Positions 231-16,426 of a stretch of 64,000 nucleotides of DNA are shown here, piece after piece (positions within the stretch are counted from its first letter, which is position 1; each line of letters begins with the position of its first letter). This DNA is from Bathymodiolus japonicus methanotrophic gill symbiont. GTDB taxonomy: Bacteria > Pseudomonadota > Gammaproteobacteria > Methylococcales > Methylomonadaceae. Where the stretch lies: positions 1 through 64,000 of the forward strand of contig NZ_BLYC01000012.1 in assembly GCF_019721995.1 (NCBI RefSeq). The letters run 5' to 3'. Position numbers and translations under genes: made by a program. The notes beneath the pieces are model-generated. The model was not told the DNA's origin. It was given only the letters and a program-made list of their open reading frames with translations, and made no database searches.

Positions 231-1467
231 ACAATCCTTATTCCATATTCCTAAGCCGCTTCATTCTGCTGTTCATTAGCTAAAATACTTTCTCTATATA
301 CATTCATTGGTTTTTTATAGTCCAGGGTTTCATGAAACCGTTGATGATTATAAAACTCAATATAGTCATCAACATCTTCTATTAACGCTCTAATTGAACC
401 ATATTCATTTAAATAAATACGCTCACATTTTGCACTTCGCCAAAACCGTTCAATACAAATATTATCCGTTGCTCGTCCTTTTCCATCCATAGAAATAGTA
501 ATGCCTTTGTTTTTTAGTCGTTGGGTATGAATTTCACTGGTGTATTGACTGCCTTGATCCGTATTAAAAATTTCAGGTGTTCCGTAGAGAGAAAGCGCTT
601 CATCTAATACATCCATAACTAAAAAAGAATCCATTGTGTTTGATATTTTATGGGCGAGCACTGCTTTTGAGTGCCAATCAATAATCGCCGCTAAATAAAC
701 CATCCCTTCTTTGGTTTTAATATAGGTTATATCTGTACTCCAAACTTGGTTAGCGTGTGATATATCAAGATCTCTAAGCTTATAAGTATATTTTTTATGT
801 TCTTTTATGGGGATCGTTGTATTGACTTGTTTTACCGCTAATACGGCTTTCAAGCCCATCTGCTGCCGATAACTCGCCACCGTGTTTAAACTGACTTTAA
901 AACCACCTTCAAGCAACTGCTGGTGTACTTTAGCCGCACCATAAATAGGGATGTCTTTAAAAATGTGATTAATCTGAGTTTTGATCTCTTCTTTCTTTTT
1001 ATTCTCTCTTTTTTTGTAATAGAGATTGCTTCTATTTAATCCTAATAATGCACACTGCTGTGTTAGAGGTAGAGTGTTAAGCTTGGGCTCAATCAACTGT
1101 TTTCTATCAGATGAGTCCAAGCTTTTTAGCTTTTTTTCGAGCCACTCCTTTTCAACCGTCATTTTTCCTACGATTTTTGTGAGCATCTCATTTTGTTCTT
1201 GAGCTGCTAATAGATCCTCTTTGTAATCTTTAACGGCTTTGGAGGGCTCCATTGCTATTTCTGCATTGTCTAAGAATATTTTTTTCCAGTTTTGTAGGTT
1301 CTTAGGTGTGATGTTATTTGCACTGGCAATTTCTTGCAGTGTTTTTTCATTCTTTAAAACTTCTAATACCAACTTGCTTTTAAATTCAGCACTGTAGACC
1401 GTTCTTTTTCTGCTCATTTTAATACTCCAATTTTTTACAAATAGTAACTAATTTGGAATAAGATTGC
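231..1467 (-). mobile_element. IS3-family insertion sequence
   Basis: An element of about 1.24 kb bounded by imperfect inverted ends: CAATCCTTATTCCAT on the left and, read from the other strand, CAATCTTATTCCAAAT on the right. It holds one long transposase gene. It lies between an ISb remnant and a different IS3 remnant, so no clean target duplication can be read. End positions are good to a few bases. Confidence 0.75.
251..1417 (-). CDS. IS3-family transposase, single open frame
   Basis: A 388-residue transposase. The N-terminal third is an OrfA-like helix-turn-helix (EFKSKLVLEVLKNEKTLQEI) followed by a charged, probably coiled-coil stretch. The C-terminal two thirds are the rve-type integrase core with the DDE residues in WSTDITYI, FNTDQGSQYTS and ERFWRSAK. 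Most IS3 elements make the fused protein by a -1 frameshift between orfA and orfB; here both parts are in one frame, as in some subgroups. No lesion is visible, so it could be active. It catalyses cut-and-copy transposition of its own element. Confidence 0.85.
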   Translation of the reverse strand: MSRKRTVYSAEFKSKLVLEVLKNEKTLQEIASANNITPKNLQNWKKIFLDNAEIAMEPSKAVKDYKEDLLAAQEQNEMLTKIVGKMTVEKEWLEKKLKSLDSSDRKQLIEPKLNTLPLTQQCALLGLNRSNLYYKKRENKKKEEIKTQINHIFKDIPIYGAAKVHQQLLEGGFKVSLNTVASYRQQMGLKAVLAVKQVNTTIPIKEHKKYTYKLRDLDISHANQVWSTDITYIKTKEGMVYLAAIIDWHSKAVLAHKISNTMDSFLVMDVLDEALSLYGTPEIFNTDQGSQYTSEIHTQRLKNKGITISMDGKGRATDNICIERFWRSAKCERIYLNEYGSIRALIEDVDDYIEFYNHQRFHETLDYKKPMNVYRESILANEQQNEAA

Positions 1468-1530
1468 TTTGATTTCTTGTCTGGATTTGCTGGGGGATTA
1501 TAAAGTTCATCACAGTGTGAAATCTTTAAT

Positions 1531-1815
1531 ACGGACCAGGGAAGTCAATTCACAACGAATCGATTTACAGGGCCCTTATTGGAGAAAGGAATCCGTGTTA
1601 GCATGGATGGCAGAGGCCGCGCATTGGATAATATTCTTGTTGAACGATTGTGGCGATCAGTCAAATATGAAAAGGTCTATCTGAATGACTTTCAGACAGT
1701 GAATGAAGCATATTTAGGGCTGAAAGACTATTTTGAATTTTACAATCACAGGCGAATTCATCAGTCCTTGGACTATCGAACGCCAGCGGAGGTTTATTAT
1801 AAAAAAAACCGGTCT
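1531..1815 (+). pseudogene. IS3-family OrfB transposase, C-terminal remnant
   Basis: The frame reads TDQGSQFTTNRFTG, then GIRVSMDGRGRALDNILVER and LWRSVKYEKVYLN, ending SLDYRTPAEVYY. This is the last part of an IS3 OrfB integrase core, with the second Asp and the catalytic Glu retained. The first half is missing. It is related to, but clearly different from, the neighbouring IS3 element. Confidence 0.8.
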
Positions 1816-2035
1816 ATACGTGAGAGTCCCTGCAGGCGGACTCCATGTGGACAAAGCGTGAATTTCCTACGGAACGTGTGGATAAGCTGATGGAAAACGA
1901 TAAAGCCGTTTCCCACGAACTTACCCACACTAATTCACCCTTTAACCACATTTCACCGCAGTCGGCAAAGAGTAGTATCAAAACGCCTGCGGCGCAATAA
2001 TAACAAATTATTAATATAAAAAGGGAAGGGCTATC
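1816..2035. other. intergenic stretch, IS flank
   Basis: No gene seen. Just past the IS3 remnant is a short hairpin (GAGTCC, 8-base loop, GGACTC, about 1823-1842). The rest is low-complexity flank leading to the end of the lipoprotein gene. Confidence 0.4.
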
Positions 2036-2362
2036 TTAACTATTTAATAAATTGGTCTGGACAATGGGGAGTATTATACCTTGCTTGTCACGCACGCGTA
2101 TAGCATAAGCATTTAATTCAAAACAGGCATCCATCATTTCCTGCTCAGCCTCGGACAAAGTATTATTCTCTTCATCCATCGTTAGCATCATGACCTCACT
2201 TACGACCGCATTCTGGCGCTTGAATATTGCCTTGGCATCAGTCCTGATTTGAGTAATTTTATAGATCCCAAGTGGGTCCTTAGCCGTTGTACAACCAGAA
2301 AATAACATAAAGCTAAAAATCAATAAGGATTTATGAATAACATTCTGGTTAAATAGCAACAT
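2036..2362 (-). CDS. small hypothetical lipoprotein
   Basis: A 108-residue protein with a hydrophobic N-terminal signal (SLLIFSFMLF) ending in a lipobox FSGC, which predicts cleavage before Cys at about residue 24 and lipid anchoring. The mature part is acidic with no motif I recognise. It is divergent from thiD: the two starts are only about 25 bases apart, so they probably share a promoter region. Function unknown. Confidence 0.65.
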   Translation of the reverse strand: MLLFNQNVIHKSLLIFSFMLFSGCTTAKDPLGIYKITQIRTDAKAIFKRQNAVVSEVMMLTMDEENNTLSEAEQEMMDACFELNAYAIRVRDKQGIILPIVQTNLLNS

Positions 2363-2387
2363 ATTTTATGATCAAATTTTATTAATT

Positions 2388-3182
2388 ATGACGCAAATAA
2401 CTAAACCCGTTGTGCTTTGTTTTTCTGGTCATGACCCTAGTGGTGGTGCAGGCATACAAGCGGATATTGAAACCATCACTAGTCATCAATGTCATGCTGC
2501 AAACGTTATTACCGCGTTAACAGAGCAAAATACCAGCAATGTAAAAGAAATGCTGCCGCAATCGCCTGAAGCAATTATTTCCCAAGCGCAGACTATTTTA
2601 GAGGATTTACCTGTAAAAGCCATAAAAATTGGCTTAATAGGTCATGAGCAAATAGCTAAGGCCATCAGCACTATTTTAAGCGAAAATCCTACAATACCGG
2701 TAGTCCTAGATCCTATTCTTGCGGCAGGCGGTGGAGCATCCTTATCCAGTAATGCATTGATACAATCCATCATAGAACTGTTGCTCCCGCGTACCACAAT
2801 ACTTACCCCAAATAGCCTTGAGGCTCGCCAGCTTACAAAATCTAATGACCTACAATCATCGGGCATAAAACTATTAGAGCTCGGCTGTGAATACGTATTG
2901 ATTACCGGCTCGCATGAGCAAAGCACCGTAGTTAGCAATCAACTTTTCCATAAAAGAGCAGTAATAGAAACATACAACTGGGATAGATTACCGCATAGCT
3001 ATCATGGCTCAGGTTGTACCCTGGCATCAAGTATCGCTGCATTAATGGCGCATGACCTAAAAGTAGAAACCTGCGTACAGGAAGCGCAGGAATATACCTG
3101 GAATAGCTTACACGCAGCTTATCAGCCTGGCAAAGGCCAGCATATTCCTAATCGCCTATTCTGGATGCAAGAACATGTCTAA
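2388..3182 (+). CDS. thiD: hydroxymethylpyrimidine/phosphomethylpyrimidine kinase
   Basis: A 264-residue ribokinase-fold protein that phosphorylates HMP and then HMP-P to HMP-PP, the pyrimidine half of thiamine. The N-terminal CFSGHDPSGGAGIQAD is the family substrate-binding signature. VVLDPILAAGGG, LTPNSLEAR and the C-terminal SYHGSGCTLASSIAALMA (anion hole and catalytic region) follow in the expected order. Length is normal. thiE follows after a gap of about 20 bases, so the two look co-transcribed. No TPP riboswitch was recognised upstream. Confidence 0.93.
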   Translation: MTQITKPVVLCFSGHDPSGGAGIQADIETITSHQCHAANVITALTEQNTSNVKEMLPQSPEAIISQAQTILEDLPVKAIKIGLIGHEQIAKAISTILSENPTIPVVLDPILAAGGGASLSSNALIQSIIELLLPRTTILTPNSLEARQLTKSNDLQSSGIKLLELGCEYVLITGSHEQSTVVSNQLFHKRAVIETYNWDRLPHSYHGSGCTLASSIAALMAHDLKVETCVQEAQEYTWNSLHAAYQPGKGQHIPNRLFWMQEHV

Positions 3183-3205
3183 GTTTTTATCATGACATTT
3201 TGCTA

Positions 3206-3820
3206 ATGAATTTCCCTAAAACTGGCCTATACGCCATAACAAAGACTGAAAACAAAACAGTTGAACAAATCATTGCTGATATCAGTGAGGCTATCAAAGG
3301 TGGCATTAAGGTCTTGCAATATCGGGATAAACGGCCTATAGATCCAACTTACCTGGCAGGTGCATTGAAAGAACTCTGCCACGCAGGTAATATTCCTCTG
3401 ATTATTAATGATAATATTACTTTAGCTAAACATATAGGCGCAGACGGTGTACATATTGGCAAAGAAGATGGTTTACTTAGTCATGCACGCGAGCTATTAG
3501 GTTCAAGCGCTATTATTGGCGTGTCCTGTTATGACAGTGTCGAACTGGCATTACAAGCACAGCAAGACTCTGCTGATTACGTGGCCTTTGGGCGATTCTT
3601 CCCTTCCAGCTCTAAACCTCTGGCCGCAGCAGCGCATATTGCTAGCTTAGAGCAAGCTAAACTCCGAATCAAAGTCCCTATCGTCGCAATAGGCGGCATA
3701 TTACCTGATAATGGCGCAGTATTACTCGATGCAGGGGCTGACCTGTTAGCCGTTATCGGAGGGGTTTTTTCCGCAACACCCTATCAATCGACTCTGGCAT
3801 ACCAGCCATTATTCAAATGA
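3206..3820 (+). CDS. thiE: thiamine-phosphate synthase
   Basis: About 204 residues, TIM-barrel ThiE. It couples HMP-PP with the thiazole phosphate to give thiamine phosphate. Visible signatures are KVLQYRDKR, IINDNITLAKHIGADGVHIG (diphosphate and Mg binding), AFGRFFPSSSKP and IVAIGGILPDN. The ATG at 3206 was preferred over a TTG two codons upstream. The final codons overlap the ATG of the next gene (ATGA), which suggests translational coupling with the broken cytochrome gene. Confidence 0.92.
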   Translation: MNFPKTGLYAITKTENKTVEQIIADISEAIKGGIKVLQYRDKRPIDPTYLAGALKELCHAGNIPLIINDNITLAKHIGADGVHIGKEDGLLSHARELLGSSAIIGVSCYDSVELALQAQQDSADYVAFGRFFPSSSKPLAAAAHIASLEQAKLRIKVPIVAIGGILPDNGAVLLDAGADLLAVIGGVFSATPYQSTLAYQPLFK

Positions 3821-4165
3821 AAATACAGTTATCTATAGCTTTAAGCCTGCTACTAGCTGCTTGCACCTACCCTGATATGCAGAAGCGCCTGGCTACAAGG
3901 CAAAGACCTAAGCTTTCAGCGTAGCAAAGGCAATTGCCTTGCCTGTCATATTATTGAAGATGGAGAAGACCCGGGGAATATAGGCCCAGCGCTAATTAAT
4001 ATGCGAGCAAAATATCAAACAAAAGCTCAACTCAAAGCGATTATCTGGGATGCCACAGAATTCAACCCACAAACCAGCATGCCTCCCTTTGGCAAAAACA
4101 ATATTCTAAGCCCCGAGGAACTGGATCTGGTCGTTGATTACATCTGGTCGATTAACACCCCCTGA
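3817..4165 (+). pseudogene. SoxX-like monohaem cytochrome c, frameshifted
   Basis: The start overlaps the thiE stop. The first frame gives a lipoprotein-type signal (KIQLSIALSLLLAAC). After about 25 codons the coding signal moves to another frame, giving WLQGKDLSFQRSKGNCLACH with a CxxCH haem site, then IGPALINMRAKY, a distal Met in TSMPPFGKNN, and a normal end at 4163-4165. This order matches SoxX-type cytochromes, which pair with SoxA in thiosulfate oxidation. No other sox gene is nearby. A single indel near 3875-3890 explains the break; a sequencing error is possible. Confidence 0.72.
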
Positions 4166-4184
4166 TGTCGTACGCGGCTTTACT

Positions 4185-4298
4185 GACTGTGAAAGTATTC
4201 AATAAATGCATCTTTCAGTTTTTAAGTTATTGTATTGATTGCTGTGAGGAGTATAAAAACATGTTTTTATACTCCAAATGACGGATACTTTCACAGTC
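4185..4298. repeat. nested inverted-repeat element
   Basis: Outer arms of 14 bases are perfect inverted repeats (GACTGTGAAAGTAT at 4185-4198, its complement at 4285-4298). Inside, 4248-4275 is a perfect 28-base palindrome (GGAGTATAAAAACA and its complement). Size 114 bp. It looks like a small MITE or a strong transcription barrier downstream of the cytochrome gene. Confidence 0.7.
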
Positions 4299-4393
4299 TT
4301 TTAACCCGCTGGTGTGTGGTAAGGTAACTCGCAAGAAATAACCCACCCACCTTGCTTGTCTTTTTGTCCGTCTTCTGCGTTGTAGTGACTTTA

Positions 4394-5261
4394 GTCGAGT
4401 CGCCCAAGGATCTTCCCCCTCAGGCTCTCACAGATCCGTACTTGAAACTCTCGCTTCATACGGCTCTTCATGCCCCTTGCAATTACCAAGTTTGAATAAA
4501 CCTTTAGTTCAGCCCTTTTCTGGTTGACTAAAGGTTGCTCATAGGCATGTCAGCCCCTTCGCTCCATTTCCATTACAGAAACTTCATCACTACTACGAGC
4601 TGGTCCGCCCCTGTGTTCTGCATCGGTACTAAGACCCTTGCGGGGCTTCCGCTTGGGTTTCTCCCTTAACATCAGTACGATAGGTTCCCACGTTCGTAAA
4701 TATTCGGCTAACACATACTACCTAGAATCAGCGAGTTAGGCGGCTTCTAAACTGACGGCTCAGCGGATAAAGCCATAAGTCATTGATTTGCACACTTTGT
4801 TTGCCAGCCGGCCCTAACTTGCCACGCCCTTTAGTTTTACCTACGTAGATCCAGTTGGCGGCTTTGTAACAAGTCCCTGCAAATTGCTCGGTATCAACAA
4901 ACGTTTCCCCACGTTCCGTAAAAAAGCCTAAAATAAGTTCATGCCACTTTTATGCCGGACACCATTTAAGCAGTAACCAGTTTACCCTTAAACTCATCAT
5001 GGAACAGTTACGAAGCTCCATTTTTGATATCACCGTACATGCTTTCGACACTTCATCAGTGGTTCGCTTGCGCTCATCTCCGAATTTCACACCTGACAGA
5101 ATCTTTGTCCTGCCTTTTCCCGTGACGCTTATCACCCTGACTCTTAATCAACGCAACTCACGGTGGTTTGATAACGACTACTGGAAGTCGCCACCGAAGG
5201 GCCATCCTTCATCTTTCTTACCGTTACGAGAAAAAATAAAAAATTTGCTCTCGTGGCACAC
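4394..5261 (-). ncRNA. group II intron relic without reverse transcriptase
   Basis: Read on the minus strand. A 34-base domain V at 4466-4433 (GAGCCGTATG...GTACGGATC type hairpin with GCGAGAG loop region) is followed by a domain VI-like stem and an end in CGAC. Upstream are intron-like stretches such as GGGAGAAACCCAAGCGG and GGAGCGAAGGGG, the block that normally precedes the intron protein. The 5' end is probably GTGTGCC at 5261, matching the GUGYG rule. No intron-encoded protein remains. A DUF4338-like fragment interrupts it at 4728-4960. Flanks resemble another repeat seen whole at 16329-16426. Boundaries are inferred. Confidence 0.6.
4728..4960 (-). pseudogene. DUF4338 (DruA-like) protein, C-terminal fragment
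   Basis: The minus-strand frame ending at 4728 reads ELILGFFTERGETFVDTEQF, then AGTCYKAANWIYVGKTKGRG, KLGP and NDLWLYPLSRQ before a stop. AGTCYKAANWI-VG-TKGRGK and the terminal WLYPL are hallmarks of DUF4338, the family that includes DruA of the Druantia defence system and many transposon-borne relatives. Only about 75 residues survive. It sits inside the group II intron relic, so it is debris and not a working defence gene. Confidence 0.68.
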
Positions 5262-5360
5262 CGTAGCCGCCTATGCGCCGTGTCTACGCCTTGAAGGCGA
5301 ACAAAAATCCTGCGCAATATTGATAGGTTATTTATTGCGTGTTACCTAACTTGTTTTCTA

Positions 5361-16328: not shown

Positions 16329-16426
16329 GTCTTTTTGCCCGTCTTCTGCGTTGTGACAGCAGTTACATAGAATGACTATGTGCATGTTATCGCGCCTTGG
16401 AGACAAACAAAAATCCTGCGCAATCT
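16329..16426. repeat. short dispersed repeat, intact copy
   Basis: Runs from GTCTTTTTGCCCGTCTTCTG to ACAAAAATCCTGCGCAAT with an internal ACATAG/CTATGT hairpin. The two halves of a second copy flank the group II intron relic (about 4355-4390 and 5282-5320), so it shows what the intron entered. Confidence 0.55.

Follow-up and report, generated by a model that had tools for sequence, protein, structure and literature searches.

The window analysed is a stretch of 64,000 nucleotides (G000:C12:1-64000) from a methanotroph genome of 4.97 Mb, available in 109 contigs. Three mobile elements lie in it one within the other: a palindromic MITE is split by a group II intron devoid of a reverse transcriptase (RT) gene, and the intron is in turn interrupted by the right end of an IS66-family element, containing the 3' end of a druA (DUF4338) gene. 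All positions are reported in Table 1, where the column "Basis or remark" indicates, for each feature, the supporting match or comparison.

Table 1. Features of the nested locus, in window coordinates.
Feature	Position	Strand	Basis or remark
3-bp MITE target duplication	4320..4322	.	TTA on minus strand; MITE ends
MITE half downstream of intron (3' exon side)	4323..4393	-	MITE comparison
Group II intron without RT gene, GTGTGCC...CTCGAC	4394..5261	-	868 nt; ends set by uninterrupted MITE copies; Rfam
Domains V and VI (RF00029)	4394..4468	-	58.1 bits, E 7.9e-9
Linker replacing RT gene, common to RT-less lineage	4469..4553	-	Alignment and genome searches
Conserved domain-IV leader	4554..4688	-	135 nt as cut; first base overlaps 8-bp duplication
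8-bp duplication GAACGTGG, right copy	4688..4695	-	Flanks IS66 piece
Right-hand 213 bp of IS66-family element	4696..4908	-	druA (DUF4338) 3' end from 4908 to about 4728
8-bp duplication GAACGTGG, left copy	4909..4916	-	Flanks IS66 piece
EBS1 loop CGTAACT	5006..5012	-	Window intron
group-II-D1D4-2 match (RF01999)	5091..5210	-	94.6 bits, E 4.8e-18
IBS1 GGCTACG, 5' exon end	5262..5268	-	6/7 pairs with window EBS1
MITE half upstream of intron (5' exon side)	5262..5346	-	MITE comparison
3-bp MITE target duplication	5347..5349	.	TTA on minus strand; MITE ends

The initial annotation, made from the sequence alone, had placed domains V and VI on the minus strand, with a group II model match expected at 4433-4466, and had regarded GTGTGCC as a plausible 5' end: all three expectations are borne out. 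Both Rfam matches score above the gathering scores of their models. When the genome was searched with positions 4340-5350, base 5262 was found to adjoin base 4393 directly in five MITE copies (C1:179081/179082, C5:38709/38710, C15:60039/60040, C15:60390/60391 and C1:204178/204179); because the two bases are adjacent there, both ends of the intron are exact, and its GUGYG...AY termini fit the precise junction of the uninterrupted site. The only mismatch between EBS1 and IBS1 is a C:A; for EBS2 and IBS2 a search by eye revealed no clear pairing. Judged by domain V, the D1-D4 match, the precise ends and the EBS1-IBS1 pairing, the element is a group II intron, and it and its relatives would presumably be able to splice. 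The RT, previously described as gone, is indeed absent from the window, as tested by tblastn with two related RTs, and the intron is in this respect ORF-less; the RT was not, however, lost at this locus, since an RT-free domain IV with a linker of about 80 nt is common to introns of other genomes. The term "relic" fits only in part: the window copy keeps both ribozyme halves, domain V and most of the EBS1 pairs, and it belongs to a lineage with covarying structure.

The sequences flanking the intron are the two halves of a dispersed palindromic repeat, 156 bp long in the window. The search with 4340-5350 gave at least 71 matches in the same genome, a lower bound, 40 of the 95 candidates having been scored; matches grouped by hand define at least about 30 places where the repeat is uninterrupted. 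Its ends were read in nine copies (eight and the window): matching TWA triplets are found outside all nine, and the termini are GGTAAC...GTTACC in eight, L035 being off by one base at each end. Being short and non-coding, with terminal inverted repeats, duplications of constant length and many copies, the repeat has the sequence features of a MITE. The intron does split a dispersed repeat, as earlier proposed; the copy at 16329-16426, previously taken as the state before insertion, is real but more divergent (37 bp at 89%, 32 bp at 91%). The insertion point falls in the upper part of the hairpin folded by a MITE copy. Pieces of the intron are held by three more MITE copies, with the 5' part in those on C2 and C18 and the 3' part in that on C1, and the flanking sequence is different at each of the three. 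Within this genome the window copy is the only one with both intron halves, and it carries the IS66 piece; all others are broken. A second dispersed repeat (about 240 bp, with TGTCAGCCC...GGGCTGATAGTCTCCAGAAGGCGCAGGG) interrupts a MITE copy and truncates one intron copy (L037, about 347-600; L027, near 3690). Between the MITE and the upstream gene, a perfect self-complementary stretch of 28 bp is found at 4248-4275 of the window.

In the alignment, the window intron, the one on C1 and those of other genomes share the same RT-free domain IV, composed of the leader, the linker of about 80 nt and then domain V. A genome was counted as containing this form if the match covered most of the linker. 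By this rule, the form is present in 7 of 237 genomes of the family (G000, which is the window genome, G015, G094, G108, G112, G136, G181), in 3 of 368 other sampled genomes of the class (G317, G460, G477) and in 3 of 397 other sampled genomes of the phylum (G682, G725, G819), the last three being all truncated and unusable for the EBS1 test described below. It is also present on one MAG contig labelled Ca. Syntrophoarchaeum (L142). G015 belongs to the same genus as the window genome, G108, G136 and G181 to the same family; in G181 the intron copy comes from a plasmid record, and all three G094 copies stop at contig ends. Where complete (n=8), the RT-less introns are 632-658 nt long. Since the linker is shared, a single loss of the RT gene is argued for. 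Searches of the open-licence PMC literature gave no title or abstract dealing with an RT-less lineage of this kind. Two of the records show further nesting. L142 features, at 633-4490, three nested group II introns: an RT-bearing one is outermost, a member of the RT-less lineage lies inside its RT gene (in the YADD region, by eye), and a further RT-bearing intron is within domain V of the RT-less one. At L215 60-736, the 5' exon of the G477 RT-less intron resembles domain V of another group II intron (by eye).

The ability of these introns to maintain a common structure was evaluated on an alignment of the eight complete RT-less introns (671 columns). The predicted structure includes 189 pairs, with 96.6% of cells paired; both sides have changed in 79 of the 189 pairs, against 37.5 in shuffled alignments (0/500) and 14-20 when the structure was slid; the structure was itself derived from this alignment, which gives it an advantage over its slid versions. 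Target matching was measured by taking as EBS1 the 7-nt loop that lies a constant number of bases from TCAAAA (in G181 one base fewer), and as its target the last 7 nt of the intron's own 5' exon. Over 17 introns, 107 of 119 positions are paired, against 59.5 when permuted (0/20000), the poor row of G001 (3/7) being retained. The first 13 introns, viewed before the offset was chosen, contribute 83 of 91 pairs (46.3 permuted), and the four added later, the only blind ones, 24 of 28. An 11-row count gives 70/77, or 64/70 without G059, which has no linker. Because the structure covaries and the loops are matched to their own targets, the lineage does not appear to be dead sequence.

Conservation is not uniform along these introns. 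In the eight-intron alignment, identity in 40-column windows reaches 97% in the domain-IV leader and about 90% in domain V, while over the initial 360 columns the windows lie between 51 and 79%. For nine RT-less introns, window included, identity is 94.8% in the final 60 nt of the leader and 89.3% in domains V-VI; in six RT-bearing introns the order is the opposite, 75.8% and 82.2%, respectively. The RT-less set may be younger, but a younger age would raise the leader and domain V figures alike. In Ll.LtrB, a domain-IV element is the main binding site of the RT. The simplest reading of the analysis would therefore be that RT-less introns have been kept able to recruit an RT.

It might be supposed, alternatively, that these are decaying, immobile introns, from which the RT disappeared on several occasions and whose present spread is due to nothing more than recombination or to the MITEs and plasmids that carry them. 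The state of the window genome, where the single copy with both halves is the one invaded by the IS66 element, would agree with this, as would five truncated copies elsewhere (L216, L220, L236, L237, L238) and the inactivation of RmInt1 by fragmentation, reported in excerpts of PMC5894124. Yet the shared linker argues for one loss, and both covariation and the fit of EBS1 to its target persist from genome to genome, so that general decay appears unlikely. The 5' truncation of the five copies is not claimed as a sign of reverse transcription, the 3'-piece probes being blind to 3'-truncated copies.

The reading in which the RT-less introns still depend on an RT leads to their RT-bearing kin. Introns with the same ribozyme carry the RT in one open frame in G101, G035, G027 and G093, and in two pieces in G114 and G040; the five measured are 1,841-1,888 nt long. 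In the G101 RT (416 aa), Pfam recognizes an RT and a maturase domain but no endonuclease domain. This protein shares 55.6% identity with an S. meliloti RT, which we take to be that of RmInt1, and the two fall in one clade of the tree (7 rows, 100/100). For the window intron, itself without RT, this would indicate kinship to class D (RmInt1-type), not membership. The RT-bearing introns of G114 and G093 (L138, L139) share the 5' exon end GATGAAA, and in G114 an IS66-like transposase frame ends, by eye, at the intron insertion.

Nine RT-less and six RT-bearing introns were compared in trees of separate parts; G059 (no linker, no RT seen), G001 (no RT seen), and L142 and G024 (domains V-VI unusable) were dropped. 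When the 5' 340 nt are used, the RT-bearing G101 intron groups with four RT-less ones (100/99), and a single RT-less clade is rejected (p-AU 8.9e-7; p 0.018 with G101 added to the set). A single RT-less clade is not rejected by the leader together with domains V-VI (p 0.24), nor by the leader alone (p 0.079); in the best tree from leader and domains V-VI, G101 lies beside the same four RT-less introns (44/88, weak) and beside G317b (94/91). The 3'-part tree by itself shows no conflict with that of the 5' half. Because the RT state conflicts with the 5'-half tree, RT-less and RT-bearing introns appear to have exchanged parts, in a way that fits a move of either one: either an RT-bearing domain IV entered an RT-less background in the G101 line, or there was a swap of 5' parts. 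Both kinds of exchange could come about if the RT switched templates while copying, a step for which the support is the conflict with RT state.

If an RT is supplied from elsewhere, a matching one might be expected in the same genomes. Ten genomes with RT-less introns were checked, and in none of them did a full-length RT of the matching clade turn up; most of them are drafts, from which repeats may be missing, but G181 is in 3 contigs and G108 in 4. The best identities to the G101 RT are 24% over most of the length, and 35% for one piece, in the window genome; 37% in G015, 41% in G181, 36% in G108, 33% in G477, 34% in G317 and 34% in G460. G094 reaches 40%, and contains in addition a stop-interrupted piece of 47 aa at 55%; G136 has a 40-aa piece at 78% and G112 has no match. 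The RTs of these genomes that were entered in the tree, short pieces being left out, fall outside the matching clade. At least 23 of the 237 family genomes match the G101 RT at 50% identity or above (cut-off 1e-40), and none of the seven with RT-less introns is among these listed matches; avoidance of the matching RT is not claimed because, with matches this infrequent, all seven would miss by chance in about half of cases (0.49). Nor is there one alternative RT common to all genomes with RT-less introns, no type being present in all of them: in the RT tree, those of G181 and G317 group at 89/90, and one from G015 is in a 100/100 group together with two from G477 and G460 and one from L142. 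Helper RTs may come and go.

The presence of RT-less introns at different EBS1-matched sites, in genomes without a full-length matching RT, G181 and G108 included, could also suggest that they move by an RNA-only route, independent of any RT. Such an element would not obviously need the domain-IV leader, which is the most conserved part, and the exchange with RT-bearing introns points to a shared machinery; this route is, in our opinion, quite improbable.

Movement with an RT acting in trans, though an inference, is the reading preferred here. As for the last of the three insertions, the 213-bp tail is also found at C1:90138 (99.5% identity) and C26:15864 (98.6%), and the three copies diverge directly after GAATATTTAC, their common terminus. 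The sister intron at C1:147257 contains GAACGTGG once, uninterrupted, and is without the DruA piece. IS66 elements make 8-bp target duplications. Because the 8-bp duplication is perfect and the sister intron uninterrupted, the intron was the target of an IS66-family element, as the initial annotation had suspected in speaking of a transposon hit in an intron. The DUF4338 C-terminus it had recognized is real too, since the 213 bp match the terminal part of a druA gene at another place in the genome; it lies, however, in mid-intron, within domain IV, and not in the upstream part. A genome search for further copies, proposed there as a check, returned the DruA tail at the two places given above, and intron copies that are all broken.

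Residues encoded from 4910 to 4812 match PF14236 (E 5.8e-6, 26.1 bits, slightly below the cut-off of 27). On C26, the druA frame, which is broken, overlaps by 4 nt the end of an IS66 transposase gene, whose product, directly upstream, matches PF03050 (E 3.4e-8) and NF033517 (E 4.8e-19, under that model's cut-off); the same layout, with a 4-nt overlap of druA and IS66 tnpC, is present in G070 and G006. Given this arrangement, druA is a passenger at the right end of the IS66-family element, which is known here from that end. The left duplication is intact though the rest of the element is gone: its left part may have been lost by a later deletion from the tip, or the element may have entered by one-ended transposition. 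That the DruA-like protein is the intron's own intron-encoded protein, as its position in domain IV, the usual ORF place in group II introns, could suggest, is hardly conceivable and is refuted at this locus by the flanking duplication and the uninterrupted sister copy, with eight complete relatives lacking any such insert and druA adjoining IS66 tnpC elsewhere.

In these methanotrophs, DruA (PF14236) genes accompany transposases, either overlapping by 4 nt the end of IS66 tnpC or fused before DDE parts (Pfam); such loci are L025 1839-3045, L178 1886-3333, L179 1298-2511, L180, L181 and L183. DruA also weakly matches the phage Mom family, and DUF4338 is called a GNAT domain in excerpts of PMC10853773. 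In the open-licence PMC literature, no paper was found joining DUF4338 with a group II intron, or DruA with IS66.

Taken together, the locus would be explained as follows, and we consider this account of three nested elements, with an old RT-less lineage most likely moving by reverse splicing, probable. The 156-bp palindromic MITE is dispersed in the methanotroph genome. A small group II intron then entered one copy, at a site paired by its EBS1 loop; its ribozyme is of the kind found in related genomes together with an endonuclease-free, RmInt1-like RT. The lineage to which it belongs lost its RT gene by an old deletion, of which the domain-IV leader and the linker of about 80 nt are what remains. 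Mobility of its members would most likely depend on reverse splicing into DNA and on an RT that acts in trans and binds the conserved leader; template switching by such an RT could account for the exchange with RT-bearing introns. Later, an IS66-family element with druA as last gene jumped into domain IV, and all but its last 213 bp has been lost.

Some known systems resemble this one in part. HYER are small RT-less group II-C ribozymes; like them, the introns described here are small, RT-less and found at several sites, but their RT-bearing kin group with the class D type of RT and the domain-IV leader is retained. With the RmInt1 type (class D, IIB-like, no endonuclease, from Sinorhizobium) they share, besides the similar RT of their kin, the EBS1-guided insertion into a repeated mobile element; the lineage differs in being without RT gene, and so shorter, and its target here is a MITE, while RmInt1, according to excerpts of PMC5894124, sits in ISRm2011-2. 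ORF-less group II introns are known in bacteria and archaea (Dai and Zimmerly 2003, Simon et al. 2008, both as cited in PMC4424553); according to the latter, bacterial group II introns without an RT are seldom found, are in nearly every case accompanied in the genome by a related RT and are not long-lived. In the introns described here, too, the ribozyme is retained and the RT absent, and the position of the L142 relative recalls the homing into intron ORFs that has been reported. In contrast to the published pattern, the same RT-less form is found here in many genomes, and the ten checked contain no full-length matching RT. An intron and a MITE are also combined in the Thiomargarita "MITEtron", but with the opposite nesting: according to PMC4853749 the MITE lies in a group I intron, whereas in the window a group II intron lies in the MITE.

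Taken alone, the locus is a nest of three elements of an ordinary kind; what makes it interesting is the lineage to which the intron belongs. It is possible, if rather doubtful in this full form, that a long-lived RT-less lineage parasitizes other introns and spreads in this way through the Pseudomonadota, as an intron counterpart of SINEs, with the RT-recruiting leader under the strictest constraint, retargeting through EBS1, exchange of parts with RT-bearing introns, and persistence without a matching RT by means of visiting plasmid helpers or of an RT-independent route. An RT-less lineage with EBS1 fitted to different targets, and with the leader conserved best of all its parts, would be to group II introns a parasite of the SINE type, and would make the movement of a ribozyme with a borrowed RT, or with none, open to test.
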